Source: a virus. From it: DNA of 33,446 nucleotides. The notes below the pieces were generated by a model, which was not told the DNA's origin, did not search any database, and was given only the letters and a program-made list of their open reading frames with translations. The position numbers and the translations under genes were made by a program. This document shows positions 16,220 to 28,697 of the stretch, piece by piece; within the stretch, counting starts at the first letter, position 1; every line of letters starts with the position of its first letter. The stretch is taken from the IMG/VR virus record IMGVR_UViG_3300006802_000058, positions 1 through 33,446 of that record; one strand, given 5' to 3'.

Positions 16220-16600
16220 GTGAATCTTACACCATCACAAGAGGCAGAACTAAAACGTCGCGCCCGTGCTATGCTAGGCTGGACAGCTCTGTCCAGGTGG
16301 TGCTCTGTTCTTCTCGGTCGTGACGTGCCAGTGTCTGAACTAAAGTCCGACTATGGTCTTATGATTGAGAACGAACGTAACGACGTAAGGTTCAACCTAG
16401 CACAGACACAGATCGAGAAGGCGCTATCAGGGGACAACACGATGCTGATCTGGTTAGGCAAGCAACACCTTGCACAGACGGACAAGGCAGCCACGGAAGT
16501 GTCAGGCAAGACCGATATACGGATCGTGCTGGCTCCAACACATGAAGAACCAAAGCAGATCGAGGACGCAGAGATTATAGCCATCGGGCCTAAACAATGA
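16220..16600 (+). CDS. Terminase small subunit-like protein
   Basis: A GTG start at 16220 gives 126 aa. The N-terminal 55 residues are helical and basic, as for a DNA-recognition domain (AELKRRARAMLGWTALSRWC). The C-terminal part has DNTMLIWLGKQHLAQTDKA, a segment frequent in phage small terminases, and then GKTDIRIVLAP. The protein would recognise packaging sites and hand DNA to the large subunit, whose gene starts within its stop codon (ATGA). The ribosome site is weak (AAGGA well upstream), and the adjacent DnaA box might influence expression. Assignment rests on the segment pattern and position. Confidence 0.75.
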   Translation: MNLTPSQEAELKRRARAMLGWTALSRWCSVLLGRDVPVSELKSDYGLMIENERNDVRFNLAQTQIEKALSGDNTMLIWLGKQHLAQTDKAATEVSGKTDIRIVLAPTHEEPKQIEDAEIIAIGPKQ

Positions 16601-17769
16601 TAACTATTGACGCACAACTACATGACGGCCAGAAGCTCATCCTGCGGAACAGGCGACGCTTCAACACCGTGGCATGTGGTCGTCGCTTTGGTAAGACTGT
16701 TATGGCAGAAGCCCTGCTCATTGAGTCTGCTATCATGGGCAGGCCGTGTGCTTACTTCGCACCAACGTATAAGATGCTATCGGATGTTTGGAAAGCGCTG
16801 AAGACAACGCTGCAGCCTATCATTACAAGTGTAAGTGAACAGGAGAAGAGGCTTACCATCGAGACGGGTGGTGTGATCGACTGCTGGTCATTAGATGCCT
16901 ATGACAGCGTGCGAGGTCGTAAGTACGCACGGGTGGTATGTGATGAGGTGGCGATGGTTAGGAACTTCATGGACGCCTGGAACGAGGCGATCCGACCAAC
17001 GCTAACAGATTACAAGGGCGACGGCTATTTCTTCTCGACACCGAAGGGCCGTAATGATTTCCACGCTATCTACGAACGTGCTAGGTTAGACGAGACTTAT
17101 GCGTCCTTTCGGATGCCTACCAGTGTGAATCCTTATATAGCACAAGACGAGATCGAGGCGGCACGTCGCGAACCGCCGACGGTTGTGTTTAATCAGGAAT
17201 ACCTAGCCGAGTTCGTGGACGTGCAGGGCGCTTTGGTGAAACGTGAGATGATAACGTATGTAAACAGCGACCAGGTGCCTAGGGATCTCAAGATCGGGAT
17301 GGGTGTAGACTTAGCGATCTCCAAATCAGACACGGCAGACTACACTGCCATCGCTGTTGTGGGCTATGACAAGGATTCAGGCCGTAGGTATGTGCTAGAC
17401 ATGTGGCGTGGTAAGGTGGGATTCCATGAGGTAGTCCAAGGCGTGCAGAGCCTAGCGAGCAAGTGGAACCCGTCACGGATCAACATCGAGGCCGTCCAAT
17501 ATCAGGTCGCTGTCGTGCAGGAACTACTCCGCAAGACATCCTTACCTGTCAAGGCTGTCAAGCCAGACCGTGATAAGGTAACACGCTTCCACGGCTTACT
17601 GGCAAGGTATGAGCAGCTGCTGGTCACACACGTGCGCGGGCTGGATCCATCATTCGAACAGGAACTACTTTCTTTCCCTGAGGGCAACCACGACGATATG
17701 GTGGATGCTCTCGTATACGCTGAGATGGCGGCTGTAAAGTCGCAAGGTGCTGGGGTGGTATTTTTATGA
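16597..17769 (+). CDS. terL: Terminase large subunit
   Basis: This 390-aa packaging motor has an N-terminal ATPase with Walker A GRRFGKT (28-34), Walker B VVCDE (113-117) and coupling motif FFSTPKG (145-151). The C-terminal RNase H-like nuclease has VDLA with D238, INIEAV with E298, and HDDMVDA with D366, D367 and D370. It pumps DNA through the portal and cuts concatemers. The protein is somewhat shorter than the usual 420-550 aa but complete in motifs. It overlaps both neighbours by ATGA. The cutting mode (headful versus cos) is not evident; the circular assembly fits either circular permutation or cohesive ends. Confidence 0.96.
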   Translation: MITIDAQLHDGQKLILRNRRRFNTVACGRRFGKTVMAEALLIESAIMGRPCAYFAPTYKMLSDVWKALKTTLQPIITSVSEQEKRLTIETGGVIDCWSLDAYDSVRGRKYARVVCDEVAMVRNFMDAWNEAIRPTLTDYKGDGYFFSTPKGRNDFHAIYERARLDETYASFRMPTSVNPYIAQDEIEAARREPPTVVFNQEYLAEFVDVQGALVKREMITYVNSDQVPRDLKIGMGVDLAISKSDTADYTAIAVVGYDKDSGRRYVLDMWRGKVGFHEVVQGVQSLASKWNPSRINIEAVQYQVAVVQELLRKTSLPVKAVKPDRDKVTRFHGLLARYEQLLVTHVRGLDPSFEQELLSFPEGNHDDMVDALVYAEMAAVKSQGAGVVFL

Positions 17770-18821
17770 GACACGGAAGTTTATTTTCAGGCATAGGTGG
17801 TTTCGACCTTGCTGCGGAGTGGATGGGATGGAGTAATGTATTCCATTGTGAATGGGCAGAATTCCCACGTAAGATATTGCACCATTACTGGCCGAATGCG
17901 ATAAGTTACCACGATGTTACACAAACGGAGTTCACAGCACATGCCGACCAAATCGACATCCTTACAGGCGGGTTCCCTTGTCAGCCGTACAGCGCGGCAG
18001 GCAAGCGCAAAGGGAAAGACGATGATCGTCACCTCTGGCCCCACATGCTACGAGCTATTCGAGAAATCAGACCTCGCTGCGTCGTGGGCGAAAATGTTTT
18101 CGGGCTTACTACTTGGAACGGGGGCGTGGTACTCGAAGAGGTGTCTGCTGAGCTGGAAGCTGAAGGTTACGCCGTACAACCGTTTATTATTCCAGCTGCA
18201 GCCGTCGGGGCTCCCCACAGAAGAGACAGGATCTGGATTGTTGCGTACTCCGTCAGCACAGGAACCAGGCATCAAGAACACCCGTCTTGTAACCAAGACT
18301 GGGGAACCTGCGGAAATAGGGAAAAGAGCTTACGACAAACACACGGGACGCCTAGCGCAAGTGGGGCTAACGCAACAAGTGCAAATGATGCGTTTGCTCC
18401 CTACTCCGAAAGCCTCGGATTTGGAAAGGGGCAACAGGAAGCTGGACGAGAACGGGCTGAACGTCAACAGCAAGGGAGTCAGGTACGGTGCAGCTCTGCC
18501 ACAACTAGCCAAGAGTGGATTGCTACCGACACCGACATGCATGGATGCAACGAATGCAACGGCAACGATGAAGTCTACACAGGTCAAGGAAGGCAGCATG
18601 CACAGCGTGACGCTAAGCAGGCAGATAAGCAGGACTTCTGGTACAACTTCCCAACTCAACCCCCTGTTTGTGGCGGAGATGATGGGATTCCCACCGAACT
18701 GGACGGTATTACCATTCCAAAGTGGCGAAGAGAAAGCATAAAGGGCTACGGGAACGCAATCGTTCCACAGGTAGCATTTCAAATTTTCCAAGCAATAGAA
18801 CAATATGAGCTTACTAACTAG
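17766..18821 (+). CDS. DNA (cytosine-5) methyltransferase
   Basis: This 351-aa enzyme transfers a methyl group from S-adenosylmethionine to cytosine C5. Motif I is LFSGIGGFD (6-14), motif IV GGFPCQPYSAAGK with catalytic C72, motif VI GENV (108-111), motif VIII GAPHRRDRIWIVA (148-160), and motifs IX-X end in GYGNAIVPQVA near 327-337. The target-recognition region (about 160-300) has repeated A-Y/D-S/T-x...G units (VAYSVSTG, APYSESLG, ATDTDMHG). It probably protects phage DNA from host restriction. No partner restriction enzyme is visible. A second ORF (18022-18741) lies entirely inside it in another frame. It overlaps terL (ATGA) and the portal gene start. Confidence 0.95.
   Translation: MRHGSLFSGIGGFDLAAEWMGWSNVFHCEWAEFPRKILHHYWPNAISYHDVTQTEFTAHADQIDILTGGFPCQPYSAAGKRKGKDDDRHLWPHMLRAIREIRPRCVVGENVFGLTTWNGGVVLEEVSAELEAEGYAVQPFIIPAAAVGAPHRRDRIWIVAYSVSTGTRHQEHPSCNQDWGTCGNREKSLRQTHGTPSASGANATSANDAFAPYSESLGFGKGQQEAGRERAERQQQGSQVRCSSATTSQEWIATDTDMHGCNECNGNDEVYTGQGRQHAQRDAKQADKQDFWYNFPTQPPVCGGDDGIPTELDGITIPKWRRESIKGYGNAIVPQVAFQIFQAIEQYELTN
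18022..18741 (+). CDS. Out-of-frame ORF nested in the methyltransferase gene (probable dual coding)
   Basis: A 239-codon frame runs from ATG 18022, six bases after AGGGAAAGACG, to TAA 18741, wholly inside the C5 methyltransferase gene in a different frame. The product is not shadow-like: it has CYELFEKSDLAASWAKMFSG, then WYSKRCLLSWKLK and NRLLFQLQPS. Three spaced units follow, LLRTPSAQ (73), LLPTPKASD (125) and LLPTPTCMD (167). The end is LNPLFVAEMMGFPPNWT. I recall very similar database proteins next to phage methyltransferases. Each LLxTP unit is encoded by the same DNA as an A-Y/D-S/T unit in the methyltransferase. An in-frame extension to 17914 lacks a ribosome site. Function unknown; possibly a partner in target recognition. 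Confidence 0.6.
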   Translation: MIVTSGPTCYELFEKSDLAASWAKMFSGLLLGTGAWYSKRCLLSWKLKVTPYNRLLFQLQPSGLPTEETGSGLLRTPSAQEPGIKNTRLVTKTGEPAEIGKRAYDKHTGRLAQVGLTQQVQMMRLLPTPKASDLERGNRKLDENGLNVNSKGVRYGAALPQLAKSGLLPTPTCMDATNATATMKSTQVKEGSMHSVTLSRQISRTSGTTSQLNPLFVAEMMGFPPNWTVLPFQSGEEKA

Positions 18822-21432
18822 AATAAAACAGTATATCTCACCATCGGGCGAGGTTGCACAGAACGACCTTCCTATGCCGCTCGAGGAGGTATGGACAAAG
18901 CACAGCTTCACACCAATAGTCAACTGGTCTGGAGCTTACAAGATGTGGAAGGCTAATCCTGTAGCACAGGCCTGCACTATCACGTACTCACTCATGATGC
19001 CCGAGGCACAGCTCGGTGTGGTCACTCCATCAGGTTACAGCTATGACGACCCTATCGTCACCATGCTCACACGTAACCAGTGGCGAGTGACTATGTCAGA
19101 GATCATGACCATCCTGTGCATCGGTGGCAATGCCTACGGCTACAAGCTGCGCAATGCCTCGGGTGCTGTGATAGGTATCAGGTGGTATTCAGATAAGCAT
19201 TTCGCGCCTGTGAATGATGGATGGGGTGATGTCGATTATTATCACTACTACAACGGTGCTGTAACCTACTCCGTACCGAAGGAAGACGTCGTGCACATCG
19301 TGGGCTTCTGGTACGACCCCGAGAAGCCACTTGGTGGCGGCTCGCCTGTCGAGCTTGCTGCGCAGTCTATTGAGGGCTACAACGAAGCCAGTGCCACGGT
19401 GTTCAACATCCACAAGAACGACGCCATGCCCAAGACCATCGTGGTCTACGATGAGGAGCTGACACCAGAGCAGGTAAGCCTTGCCGAGCGTTCGTTCAAG
19501 CGCAAATATGGTGGAGACCGTCGCGGTTCCGTTGGTATCATGTGGGGCGTGAAGGACGTCAAGCGCCTAGCCCTCGACTGGAACGAGCTCGGTCTATCTG
19601 ACACGTTCGGTCAGTACGAGACCCGTATCTGCGGTGCTTACAAGGTGCACCCTATTATCGCAGGGACTCATATGGGTCTGTCACAGAGTACCTACAGCAA
19701 TTTCGAGCAGGCCTCTAAAGACTACACAAACATGGTGCGTGTTCCATTCTGGAATATGCTCGCTGACCAGATCAATGCACAGCTCGCCATCCCTGACTAT
19801 GGTGTCGAGATCGGTTTCGACCTGTCCACAGTTCAGGCACTTGCTGGTGATGCTATTGCGACCGAGGCCGTGTCGACTCAAGATGCAAATGTGAACGGTG
19901 ACAACTCCAGCGACGGAGGCGCTGTGCCTGTTGAGGCGCGTGGCTTTCGTGGTATCTCAACAAAAATCAGGAGTGGAGAGGAAGCCGTAATCGTAGACAT
20001 CGACGATACACTGCTTACGAGCACAGGCAACCCAAAGCAGAACGTCATCGACTACGTCAATGCCAAGCACGCTGAGTACATGATACACATCGTGACCGGT
20101 CGCATGATTGACGACCGTGACCGCACTGTACGAGAGCTCGAGGATGCTGGCGTCAAATACGACGAGCTGCACCTTAACGACACAACAGCGCCCACGATAG
20201 TCTGGAAAGAATACAAAGCCAAGAAAATACAGGAGATGCATCCTGTAGATTTGGCTATTGACAATGACGAAGAGACCCGTGCCATGTACCGCAGCCTTGG
20301 TATTGATACGCTGAATCCATCAGACATACCAGAGATCGATAGCAAGCAATATGAAGGCATAGACTTTCTACCACCCAAGGGCGTCCGTGATGAGGCAGCC
20401 AAGGGCCTCGAGTGGCGTCGTGAGTATAACAGAGGCGGCACGGCTGTAGGTGTTGCCAGAGCTCGAGACCTCAGCAATGGACGTGCTATCTCGCCAGATA
20501 CGGCGAGGCGCATGAACAGTTACTTTGCACGGCACGAGGTCGACAAGCAGGGCGAAGGGTGGTCACCAGGTCAGGAGGGATTTCCTTCTGCTGGTCGCAT
20601 TGCATGGGCTCTGTGGGGTGGTGATGCTGGTCAGCGCTGGAGTGCCAAGCTAGTCGAGCAGATGAATGCTGAAGACGAGCAGAAGGCGCTGTTCAAGAGC
20701 GACGTGAAGTCATGGCTGCAACATCCAGACTCGCATGTTTATAGCAAGCAGTACGACGAGGCACTGAAGCCTTACGATGACCGCATAGCAAAATCATGGT
20801 CGATGGTAGCGATGGAGCTCGCCACCTACCTACGTGATACCAAATCGGCATGGGCTGTAGAAACAAAAGCCGAGGACTTCAGCGAGGACTTTTGGACTGA
20901 GAAGTTCCTGCGGGAAACCGAGACGGACAGGGAGGAGCTTGTCGAGCTGGTCATCAAGTTAGCCCAGGAGGAAGTGGACGCAGAGCCTGGAGACTTTGCC
21001 AAAGCTCGTGAGGCTGGAATCATTGAGTCATCTAACAAGATATCCGACAGCGTCCCAACACTCCGTGCGGACGTGCAAAAGGTTGTTCTCGAGAACCCTG
21101 GTATATCAGATGAGGAACTGAGCAAACTGCTATTCGACAAGGTCAAGGGCATCAGTCAGGCCCGAGCCAACATGATCGCACGCACGACGGTAACAGCTAC
21201 AACAGGTGCAACACAAAAATCGGTCTGGGATGAATTGGGTGGAATCCGCAGGTCATGGGCAGCCTTGGCAGGGGCACGGGCTGCGCACGCTGCAGCACAT
21301 GACAGTTTAGAGGACGACAACGGGCTATTCACAGTAGGCGGTGAACAGACACCATACCCTGCAGGCGATGGCCTCAGCGCTGCAAACTCCGTCAACTGCC
21401 GATGTTTCGCACGTGCTCGCAGGGCCGTGTGA
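18805..21432 (+). CDS. Portal protein fused to HAD phosphatase, GGTAVGVARAR module and MuF-like domain
   Basis: This 875-aa protein is about twice normal portal length. Residues 1-350 are an HK97-type portal (YKMWKANPVAQACTITYS, then LCIGGNAYGYKLR, and GLSQSTYSNFEQA near 291). Residues 394-505 are a complete HAD phosphatase: DIDDT 398-402, TGR 431-433, a lysine-rich motif III near 464-474 and DNDEET 486-491. Residues 528-615 carry the phage module RREYNRGGTAVGVARARDL...ARRMNSYFARHE...GRIAWALWGGDAG. Residues 765-875 are MuF-like (QARANMIARTTVTATTGATQ...NSVNCRCFAR). The portal ring would display 12 copies of each domain at the capsid vertex. The frame is continuous with no weak stop. The start overlaps the methyltransferase end by 17 bases. 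Confidence 0.85.
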   Translation: MSLLTRIKQYISPSGEVAQNDLPMPLEEVWTKHSFTPIVNWSGAYKMWKANPVAQACTITYSLMMPEAQLGVVTPSGYSYDDPIVTMLTRNQWRVTMSEIMTILCIGGNAYGYKLRNASGAVIGIRWYSDKHFAPVNDGWGDVDYYHYYNGAVTYSVPKEDVVHIVGFWYDPEKPLGGGSPVELAAQSIEGYNEASATVFNIHKNDAMPKTIVVYDEELTPEQVSLAERSFKRKYGGDRRGSVGIMWGVKDVKRLALDWNELGLSDTFGQYETRICGAYKVHPIIAGTHMGLSQSTYSNFEQASKDYTNMVRVPFWNMLADQINAQLAIPDYGVEIGFDLSTVQALAGDAIATEAVSTQDANVNGDNSSDGGAVPVEARGFRGISTKIRSGEEAVIVDIDDTLLTSTGNPKQNVIDYVNAKHAEYMIHIVTGRMIDDRDRTVRELEDAGVKYDELHLNDTTAPTIVWKEYKAKKIQEMHPVDLAIDNDEETRAMYRSLGIDTLNPSDIPEIDSKQYEGIDFLPPKGVRDEAAKGLEWRREYNRGGTAVGVARARDLSNGRAISPDTARRMNSYFARHEVDKQGEGWSPGQEGFPSAGRIAWALWGGDAGQRWSAKLVEQMNAEDEQKALFKSDVKSWLQHPDSHVYSKQYDEALKPYDDRIAKSWSMVAMELATYLRDTKSAWAVETKAEDFSEDFWTEKFLRETETDREELVELVIKLAQEEVDAEPGDFAKAREAGIIESSNKISDSVPTLRADVQKVVLENPGISDEELSKLLFDKVKGISQARANMIARTTVTATTGATQKSVWDELGGIRRSWAALAGARAAHAAAHDSLEDDNGLFTVGGEQTPYPAGDGLSAANSVNCRCFARARRAV

Positions 21433-21540: not shown

Positions 21541-22290
21541 ATGAAGATAGAACGCAAATCATTTGATATTGAAACCAAGGCCGAAGGCGACAACGGTGTC
21601 ATCGAGGCTATTGTATCGGTATTTAATAACGTCGACAGCTATGGCGACCGTGTGAAGTTTGGATTCTTTGACGAATCCCTTCGCACGAAGCTACCCAAAG
21701 GCGTATGGGCACACGACTGGAAAACACCAGTGGCCAAAACTCTCGAGGCTCGTGAGCTTATGCCAGGTGATGCCCTGCTGCCTGAGAAGCTCAAGGACCT
21801 TGGCGGCCTGTATATCAAGGGCCAGTTCAACATGAACACCCAGCGAGGCCGTGAGACTTACAGCGACATCAAGGAAGGCATCATCGACGAGTTCTCGATC
21901 GGTTACTCTGTGATGGAGGAAGGCTATTCCCCAGACGGAGCCCGTGAACTTGTCAAGGGACGACTCTATGAGTGGTCTCCTGTGCTCTTTGGAGCTAACT
22001 CAGAAACTGCTTTAATCAGTGCCAAGGGACTCAATGACGACCTTGCTGACGTCGGAGCCGACGTCGAGCGTGTTGTCACGAGGTTGAACGAACGTGCTGA
22101 GATCAGACTCAAGGAAGGGCGAACGTTATCGTCGGCAAACGTAACACGCCTGACCGAACTCATGGACACGCTGGCCTCTGCGGTGCAAAGCATCAAGGGC
22201 CTCATCGAGTCCGCACAACCAGTGAACGCAAAGGCAGCTATGGAAATGGAAGCCTTGCGTCAATTAGTAAACAAAAGGAACAAACAATGA
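21541..22290 (+). CDS. Prohead (head maturation) protease, HK97 family
   Basis: The 249-aa protein matches the HK97 prohead protease layout: N-terminal FDIETKAEGDNGVIEAIVSV and VDSYGDRV, catalytic histidine in VWAHDW (H58), and catalytic serine in DEFSIGYSV (S119), followed by GRLYEWSPVLFGAN around 140-153. The C-terminal 90 residues are a charged helix of the kind that acts as scaffold or tether. It cleaves the capsid N-terminal delta domain and itself during head maturation. The start follows a GGGGAACG site and its stop overlaps the capsid gene ATG (ATGA). Confidence 0.92.
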   Translation: MKIERKSFDIETKAEGDNGVIEAIVSVFNNVDSYGDRVKFGFFDESLRTKLPKGVWAHDWKTPVAKTLEARELMPGDALLPEKLKDLGGLYIKGQFNMNTQRGRETYSDIKEGIIDEFSIGYSVMEEGYSPDGARELVKGRLYEWSPVLFGANSETALISAKGLNDDLADVGADVERVVTRLNERAEIRLKEGRTLSSANVTRLTELMDTLASAVQSIKGLIESAQPVNAKAAMEMEALRQLVNKRNKQ

Positions 22291-23636
22291 ACTTGCAACA
22301 GATCAACGACACCATCGTTGCGAAGTCTGCCGAGCTTGAAACACTGCTCGCAAAGACAGAGCCGTCGATGGATGAAGTGAAGGCTGCCAAGACTCTCAAT
22401 GAAGAGATCGACGGCCTGACGGCACAAGCCGAAGAGATCAAGTCGTTCGACGCTATCAAGGCCAAGAACGCACAGCGTGCTGCTGAAGTTAAGACAGCAG
22501 TGAACAAGCTCCCACAGACATCAGACATCAAGGTTGGTGAGTCATCAGCAAAGGCAAACATGCCAGAAGCTGAATACAAGGCTTACGTGACAGGCCTCTT
22601 TGTTGGCGGTCTCCAGAACGAAGCTGCTCGTCAGAAGTACGCTGAAGTCACTGGCGTAGATTACAAGACACACACACAAGGCAACGACGCCACAGGTGGA
22701 ATCTTTGTACCAACGGAGACATCAAGCCTCATCATCAATCTCAAGGACACCTACGGCGCTTTCCGTCGCAATGTCCGTGTAGAGCCTATGGGCTCGGAGT
22801 CGATCCGCATCTTCCGCACAGGTGATGACGTGACGGCTTACTGGGGCTCAGAGACGGGAACACTGTCATCATCTGACATGTCATTCGATGCAGTAACACT
22901 GAACGCTAAGAAGATGTATGCTCTCGCAGTTCTCTCTGAAGAACTCGTGATGAACAGCACACAGAACCTCGGCCTTCGCTTTGCCGAGTCAGTAGCCCGT
23001 CAGTTCGCGAAGAAGGAAGACCAAGCTGGTTTCTTGGGTGATGCAACATCTACCTACGGCGGCGTCCTCGGTCTCTACGGCAAGCTCCAGAAGGTCCTCA
23101 CAGACGGTGGTGGAACTTGGACAAACGACACGCACAAGGGCTACCTCGGTTCGGCCCAGGTATGTGCTGGCAATACGTTCGCAGAAGTAACAATGGGCAA
23201 CCTCATCGCAGGTATGCGCAAGGTTCCAACATACGCACTCACAGGTGCAAAGTGGTACTTCAACAAGGTTGCCTTCGGTGAGACAGCAGAGCGCCTGGCA
23301 TACGCACAAGGCGGCAGCACAGCAGCTGAACTCGCAGGTTCTTTCGGCCAGCGTCTGTTCGGCTATCCTGTTGAGTTCGTCGATGTAATGCCTGGAACAG
23401 ACGGAAACTCACAAGTCTTCGCATGGTTCGGCAACCTGTCACAAGCTGCAACGCTTGGCGATCGCATGACGACAGCCATCAAGCAGGATGCAAGCAAGGG
23501 CTTTGATACAGACACGATCTATGTCAAGGCAACGCAATATCTCGACATCAAGGTGCACGAGATGGGCAACTACAACGCAACGGCAGCAAGCCGTGAGACA
23601 GGTCCTATCGTTGGTTTCGTAACTATTAACTCATAA
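22287..23636 (+). CDS. Major capsid protein, HK97 fold
   Basis: This 449-aa protein has a helical N-terminal delta domain (residues 1 to about 105; coiled coil with ELETLLAKTEPSMDEVKAAK) that acts as scaffold and is presumably removed by the adjacent protease. The body starts near TGVDYKTHTQGNDATGGIFVPTE and shows capsid-fold features such as FRRNVRVEPMGSESIRI, EELVMNSTQNLGLRF and KVHEMGNYNATAASRETGPI near the C-terminus. It forms the icosahedral shell. The ribosome site is AAAGGA. Codon use is markedly regular with many AAG, CTC and GCA codons, as expected for a highly expressed gene. Confidence 0.93.
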   Translation: MNLQQINDTIVAKSAELETLLAKTEPSMDEVKAAKTLNEEIDGLTAQAEEIKSFDAIKAKNAQRAAEVKTAVNKLPQTSDIKVGESSAKANMPEAEYKAYVTGLFVGGLQNEAARQKYAEVTGVDYKTHTQGNDATGGIFVPTETSSLIINLKDTYGAFRRNVRVEPMGSESIRIFRTGDDVTAYWGSETGTLSSSDMSFDAVTLNAKKMYALAVLSEELVMNSTQNLGLRFAESVARQFAKKEDQAGFLGDATSTYGGVLGLYGKLQKVLTDGGGTWTNDTHKGYLGSAQVCAGNTFAEVTMGNLIAGMRKVPTYALTGAKWYFNKVAFGETAERLAYAQGGSTAAELAGSFGQRLFGYPVEFVDVMPGTDGNSQVFAWFGNLSQAATLGDRMTTAIKQDASKGFDTDTIYVKATQYLDIKVHEMGNYNATAASRETGPIVGFVTINS

Positions 23637-27632: not shown

Positions 27633-28697
27633 ATGCCGCGTCCACGCCTTACATCCGAAGAGTGGGAGATTGCACAGGAAGCCATCTCACAGGCCCGCAA
27701 AGGCCGTATAGACGACGCAAAGCGTCGAGGCGGGGAAACTACAGGGGCCAGGACAAGAAACGCTCACAGCTACGCAAACTCGCAGGAACACCTCGAGCAC
27801 ATTGGTCGCAAGGTTAGAGGGTTCAAGGGCATCCGCGAACGTCAGGCACAAGCCGACGAAGAACTCATCGCGATAGAATCACCAGTGATTCCTCGCGGTG
27901 CTGTCCCTGATTTTGAACCTATCAAGGGCGAGCTCAGGGAAGACAAGGTCTGCGAACTGCAGACTGGTCGTATTGGCATTATCTCAGATGCGCACTGGCC
28001 GTTCCACGATCTCAAGCGTGATGGCGATGGCAATTTCTACGGCGCTTACATGACTGCCATCGAGACGCTCAAGAACAGCCAGTGCGACGTCATCGTCTTG
28101 AACGGTGACATGCTGGATGTCTACAACCTGAGCGACCATGAGAAGGTAGAGGCACGTCGTTCATGGAAGTGGGAGCTCGACGTTGCAAAGGCAATGCTGC
28201 AGCACCTACGTCGGTTCTTCGGTGACAAGCAGCGCATCGTGTACCGTGAAGGAAACCACGAGGAGAGGTATGGACGGTACATAGCACGCAAGGCCAAGGA
28301 ACTCGAGGGCACGGTGCATCTCGAGGAGTTCCTCGGACTGCGGGCTCTGAACATCGAATGGGTGGACAAGAGAGCCAAGATGACAGCAGGCAAGCTGTGG
28401 ATAGACCACGGCCATGAGTGGTTTGGTGGTGGTGGAGTAACACCGGCACGAAACTACCGCATGAAGGCCATCGAGAACATCCTCGTCGGGCACGTACACA
28501 GAACATCGACGGACGTCATTAGAAAGCCGCTAGACGGCTCGTATATCGGTGGGTGGTCTGTGGGTTGCCTCTGCGACCTCAACACGCACTACGCAGCCCG
28601 TAACGGCTGGAATCATGGCTTTGCTATTGTAGACGTTGACAGCTCTGGTGATTTTACAGTCCACAACAAGATGATAATCGGAGGCAACATCCGATGA
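27633..28697 (+). CDS. Calcineurin-like metallophosphoesterase
   Basis: The 354-aa protein has the full metallophosphatase set: SDAHWPFH (D119, H121), NGDMLD (158-162), GNHEE (207-210), DHGHEW (H259, H261) and VGHVHR (286-290). These bind two metal ions and cleave phosphoester bonds. The N-terminal 105 residues are basic and helical with TSEEWEIAQEAISQARKG, perhaps a DNA-binding or docking region. Phage members may act on nucleotides, DNA or proteins; the substrate is not shown. Its place between holin and endolysin genes is unusual. The stop overlaps the next ATG (ATGA). Confidence 0.88.
   Translation: MPRPRLTSEEWEIAQEAISQARKGRIDDAKRRGGETTGARTRNAHSYANSQEHLEHIGRKVRGFKGIRERQAQADEELIAIESPVIPRGAVPDFEPIKGELREDKVCELQTGRIGIISDAHWPFHDLKRDGDGNFYGAYMTAIETLKNSQCDVIVLNGDMLDVYNLSDHEKVEARRSWKWELDVAKAMLQHLRRFFGDKQRIVYREGNHEERYGRYIARKAKELEGTVHLEEFLGLRALNIEWVDKRAKMTAGKLWIDHGHEWFGGGGVTPARNYRMKAIENILVGHVHRTSTDVIRKPLDGSYIGGWSVGCLCDLNTHYAARNGWNHGFAIVDVDSSGDFTVHNKMIIGGNIR

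Follow-up and report, generated by a model that had tools for sequence, protein, structure and literature searches.

The locus examined here raises the question of why a phage portal protein should carry a phosphatase domain with a seemingly intact active site. It lies in IMG/VR virus record IMGVR_UViG_3300006802_000058, analysed over positions 1 to 33,446 (hereafter the window, 33,446 nucleotides in full). One open reading frame (ORF) of 875 amino acids with an ATG start (18805–21432, plus strand, as are all its domains) joins an HK97-type portal domain, a phosphatase of the HAD superfamily, a helical module (phrog_2859) and a MuF-type head-morphogenesis region. We interpret the HAD domain as an optional phosphatase cargo of the head interior, loaded via whichever interior head protein carries it, and give this interpretation roughly two chances in three. 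HAD and module would probably both be cargo built into the head interior, and not parts of the DNA gate.

Pfam and PHROGs between them place these four elements in one frame, as an earlier note made from the letters alone had proposed. The portal domain (residues 97–348; 19093–19848) matches PF04860 at 1.6e-29, scoring 103.6 bits against a curated cut-off of 39.1, and phrog_2662 at 1.6e-32; its gene sits between that of the terminase (from 16597) and those of the protease (from 21541) and capsid protein (from 22287). The HK97 portal 8cez is a weak structural match to this part, although the AlphaFold2 (AF2) model is poor there. At the other end of the chain, the MuF-type region (residues 641–875; 20725–21429) matches phrog_2468 at 8.2e-14 (residues 644–870), and AF2 models it with predicted local distance difference test (pLDDT) values mostly of 70–89. 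Phage_Mu_F (PF04233) reaches just 15.9 and 19.2 bits at residues 766–868, under its curated cut-off of 29.6. We therefore call the region MuF-like only, an assignment by sequence similarity in which the family alignment and phrog_2468 count for more than the Pfam score.

Could the fusion be an assembly chimera, which the earlier note had named as a danger to its proposal, or a misread frame? Both are refuted, with a negligible chance of either. Independent contigs from several assemblies carry the same fusion (loci L003, L005, L010, L011, L043 and L056), with divergence that differs from domain to domain; these contigs also bear out the suggestion that the same domain order be sought in other phages. 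The frame at 18805–21432 is open, and each of the five alternative frames contains 25 to 46 stops. A profile search of genome contigs (host or prophage) with the family alignment returned no relative.

The HAD domain (residues 386–505; 19960–20319) resembles the PNKP phosphatase and lacks a large cap. Its motifs, which had been described as intact and are so, comprise DIDDT (398–402), VTGR (430–433), WKEYKAKK (467–474) and AIDNDEE (484–490). They provide the DxDxT of motif I, the Ser/Thr of motif II, the lysine of motif III (K468) and, as a refinement of the earlier description, a motif IV of the form D-N-D (D486-N487-D488). In an alignment of seven members reaching down to 34% identity, eight motif residues (D398, D400, T402, G432, R433, K468, N487 and D488) never vary, and neither does the pattern D-I-D-x-T. 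Pfam HAD families match within residues 393–503, and the polynucleotide kinase family phrog_415 matches at 387–516. A HAD profile built without the window's row scores the window region at 193 bits, compared with 11.8 for the best of 2000 shuffles, which rules out a chance resemblance. AF2 models residues 391–510 with pLDDT of about 80–92, and the best match of this model in the PDB is the 3'-phosphatase of T4 Pnkp (5uj0; VIA Z 17.7, root-mean-square deviation 2.0 Å over 118 residues), with many further HADs above VIA Z 11. From the model and this match we assign the Rossmannoid HAD fold, as the earlier note had expected. A sequence profile search likewise ranks the Pnkp phosphatase family first. 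By motif, the domain looks catalytically complete.

The linker between portal and MuF is an exchange slot, with HAD and module swapped in and out at one spot. Its upstream border is a low-complexity stretch (residues 349–385; 19849–19959), delimited by relatives in which the slot is empty. A scan with the whole protein recovered 55 relatives, and non-identical sequences from one portal family held nothing in the slot in 35 cases, the module in seven, module-HAD in five, HAD-module in three and HAD alone in three, a census that includes two portals just 29% and 37% identical (L056 and L060). The exchange is most apparent in near-isogenic loci. Portal DNA is 100% identical over 1065 bp, and the MuF part 95% identical, between a locus with an empty slot (L233) and one with module-HAD (L261); a third locus, 90% identical to this pair in portal DNA, has the module alone (L264). 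Similarly, about 1 kb of portal DNA is nearly 100% identical between the window and L006 and L007, which are without HAD, while L005 is 100% identical over about 540 bp of HAD DNA with a diverged portal. In three loci (L045, L046 and L047) a HAD that is intact in L011 has been deleted in frame, leaving the remnant VIVDID-TEEP. HAD presence requires seven changes on the portal tree, close to the mean of 8.2 for shuffled data.

This distribution bears directly on what the domain might do at the portal. The earlier note had offered, as one half of its guess at function, that the phosphatase trims DNA ends at the entry vertex, read here as a trimming or cleaning activity in packaging, and the fusion would indeed put the HAD beside the DNA channel. 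However, the HAD is dispensable for packaging, since most members of the portal family lack it, near-isogenic ones included. HAD phosphatases of the T4 Pnkp-type fold are not known to cut DNA, and the ends left by terminase are already 3'-OH. We consider end trimming very improbable. The other half of the guess, ejection with the DNA and action in the host, is the better one and is plausible.

Frequent gain and loss would also suit a second alternative, namely that HAD and module serve as spacers in the structure or as ornaments that bind DNA, spread via recombination of linker DNA, with no need of catalysis. The absence of a match between the module and any known enzymatic fold points the same way. 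On the other side stand the invariant motif residues and the low rate of amino-acid change in the HAD: nonsynonymous (dN) and synonymous (dS) divergences are 0.009 and 0.32 between the window and L003, and 0.025 and 0.42 between L010 and L043, giving dN/dS of about 0.03–0.06. Where retained, the domain is, by this comparison of coding sequences, under purifying selection, and we regard the spacer explanation as doubtful.

Portals are not the only carriers of this HAD. The counts that follow rest for the most part on the 80 top matches listed by a single scan and do not represent natural frequencies. Among the matches listed, 86 ORFs contain the HAD: 47 are fusions to an S78 prohead protease (39 of them with the module), 20 are solo, 11 are portal-MuF fusions and eight are of other kinds. 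The closest HAD relatives among these matches are, by sequence, fused to the protease or standing alone. The earlier note had thought a HAD within a portal-MuF protein unusual; the fusion is real, but it is not unique, and most of the close HAD relatives listed are found on the prohead protease. The HADs on portals group in a single clade (95/90; 96% of bootstrap trees) whose sister group is the protease-fused HADs. When members were scanned with Pfam and PHROGs, the protease was confirmed, and some members proved to contain Dps/ferritin, DUF5824 or a TUDOR-like domain. Where a portal-HAD locus includes the protease gene, that protease is without HAD, though short loci restrict coverage; one locus (L172) contains two solo HADs.

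Since the main carriers, portal-MuF and prohead protease, are both interior head proteins, we take the HAD to be cargo of the head interior. The portal-MuF junction would act as a slot for optional domains facing that interior, on a portal that packages DNA with no need of HAD or module. In the head, the crown of the portal points inwards, towards the packaged DNA (PMC10359639), and portal stoichiometry would bring up to twelve phosphatase copies into the prohead on the crown side, beside the DNA and MuF; location and copy number alike are extrapolated from known head biology. The HAD might then stay with the packaged DNA, or be released and ejected with it, and early in infection would remove phosphates, with nucleic-acid ends or nucleotides as its most likely substrates. 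Other phages could reach the same end by placing the HAD on the interior prohead protease or encoding it separately.

Several observations weigh against this interpretation. Motif IV of the window HAD is D-N-D, compared with the D-D of T4 Pnkp. Two T4 residues that we take to be important, Arg176 and Asp278, are not kept in the structural and seven-member alignments: conservation is lacking at the position of Arg176, where the window has no arginine, and Asp278 corresponds to Asn487. With the T4 residues partly replaced, the substrate may differ from a polynucleotide 3'-phosphate. Active HADs of the FCP1/SCP group, on the other hand, use an Asp-Asn motif IV, for which reason we read the site as complete. 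A Pfam scan found no kinase or ligase domain in the window ORFs it covered, several ORFs lying outside the scan. The full-length AF2 model has a mean pLDDT of 52.8 over the portal and is too poor there to place the HAD relative to crown or ring. Lastly, the HAD is lost in most relatives, and any benefit it confers must be conditional.

Two narrower versions of the cargo interpretation specify the substrate, and we hold each of them only tentatively. In the first, the HAD protects DNA in the virion or early in infection by stripping 3'-phosphates that oxidation or nucleases leave behind on phage DNA, a task in which Dps-like cargo would accompany it in related phages. The closest fold, that of the T4 Pnkp 3'-phosphatase, agrees with this, as does the chaining of Dps/ferritin with HAD, module and S78 protease (L120 and L148) or with HAD and protease (L212). 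These three are the only Dps cases among the matches listed, L120 and L148 being one contig, and the replaced T4 residues speak against such a substrate. In the second, which is likewise possible though not favoured, the HAD is ejected to counter host defences, with host RNA ends or signalling nucleotides as its targets, and would resemble in this the enzymatic domains carried by polyvalent and MuF proteins. PBECR, 2H phosphoesterase and InPase domains fused to portal or MuF are likely delivered effectors (PMC5512222), delivery has been proposed for MuF toxins (PMC5576092; PMC6316719), and the patchy gain and loss of the HAD fits an arms race. Counting against it is the lack of a partner kinase or ligase among the scanned ORFs.

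Head-interior phosphatase cargo has partial counterparts among known systems. The T4 Pnkp 3'-phosphatase (5uj0, 1ltq) and bacterial Pnkp1 (4xrp) have the HAD fold in common with the window domain (Z 16.6–17.7), and the DxDxT, the S/T-G-R and the first Asp of motif IV align as well. The window protein differs in having no kinase domain and in that its HAD is inserted in a portal protein. Among named phages, matches to the HAD were confined to polynucleotide kinases and their relatives (about 30% identity), with no portal fusion. The polyvalent proteins of Iyer et al. (2017; PMC5512222) are alike in bearing an enzymatic domain on portal or MuF that is proposed to be packaged and delivered; the main text of that paper contains neither 'HAD superfamily' nor 'phosphatase', and the present case differs in that the slot can be seen both filled and empty in near-isogenic phages. 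Another domain is also added to a portal-associated MuF protein in the MuF polymorphic toxins (PMC5576092). Their cargo, however, is a C-terminal toxin, whereas the cargo here lies on the N-terminal side of MuF, within a portal fusion, and has a repair-type phosphatase fold. SPP1 gp7, a MuF protein, enters the procapsid by binding the portal gp6 and is dispensable for assembly (PMC6316719), which makes it comparable as a portal-targeted accessory of the head interior; it is a separate protein with no enzymatic insert. The IMG/VR S78 protease fusions (L145–L217) include the closest HAD relatives among the matches listed and have the same pairing of HAD and module, on a head maturation protease instead of a portal; we found no paper describing them. 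Portal and MuF fusions to enzymes (PBECR, 2H, InPase, toxins) are thus already known, and the open-access literature searched yielded nothing relevant on HAD-portal or PNK-protease fusions.

Further arrangements were seen among the relatives. A 1172-aa portal-MuF chain of a different portal lineage (L117, 1859–5377) has DUF5824, DUF3721 and the module in its slot. One contig, shared by L120 and L148, encodes a 702-aa frame (L120, 3794–5902) with the phrog_2859 module, HAD, Ferritin/Dps and S78 protease, and a prohead protease fusion in L145 (3557–5491) has Hva1_TUDOR ahead of HAD and module. Seven loci (L192, L194, L200, L203, L204, L213 and L215) have a 186-aa solo HAD gene directly downstream of the S78 protease gene, and a solo gene beside the protease is a third mode of encoding the HAD. 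A 987-aa protein in L162 (3974–6934) begins with a HAD of the same family and has no further Pfam match; the module is encoded further downstream, in a frame of its own. Pontimonas phage phiPsal1 was considered as having a HAD on its prohead protease, which was rejected, as a profile search shows only the module and S78.

In the window itself, the fusion lies within a head gene order of terminase, C5-methylase, fusion, S78 protease and HK97-fold capsid. The large terminase (16597–17769, plus strand; PF17289, PF03237) is followed by the C5 cytosine methylase (17766–18821), which overlaps the portal start by 17 bases. Downstream of the fusion, on the plus strand, are the 249-aa S78 prohead protease, free of HAD in this phage (21541–22290; PF04586, 2.4e-18), and the HK97-fold major capsid protein (22287–23636; PF05065, 2.2e-29). 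A calcineurin-like metallophosphoesterase gene lies further downstream (27633–28697).

The module that accompanies the HAD (residues 519–626; 20359–20682; phrog_2859 match at 516–625) has at least 600 relatives, on portals, proteases and capsid-protein fusions. AF2 predicts a five-helix fold with a pLDDT of 95.9. Its best Foldseek match in the PDB has E 1.1, and no PDB sequence matches at E 1; this lack of a match does not prove a new fold.

Taken more broadly, tailed phages may draw on a common, recombining pool of cargo domains for the head interior, comprising the PNKP-like HAD, the phrog_2859 module and sometimes Dps or DUF5824, which moves among portal-MuF linkers, prohead proteases and solo genes, usually with one HAD per head gene cluster. 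Whether this amounts to a general route for loading enzymes into capsids is, in our estimation, evenly balanced. The phrog_2859 module, which has no solved relative, stands out as an uncharacterised domain that is widespread among head proteins. The portal ring, a highly constrained phage machine, has a defined linker at which entire enzyme domains are tolerated and exchanged. The near-isogenic natural pairs (empty, module and module-HAD) allow a direct test of the benefit of head-interior cargo.

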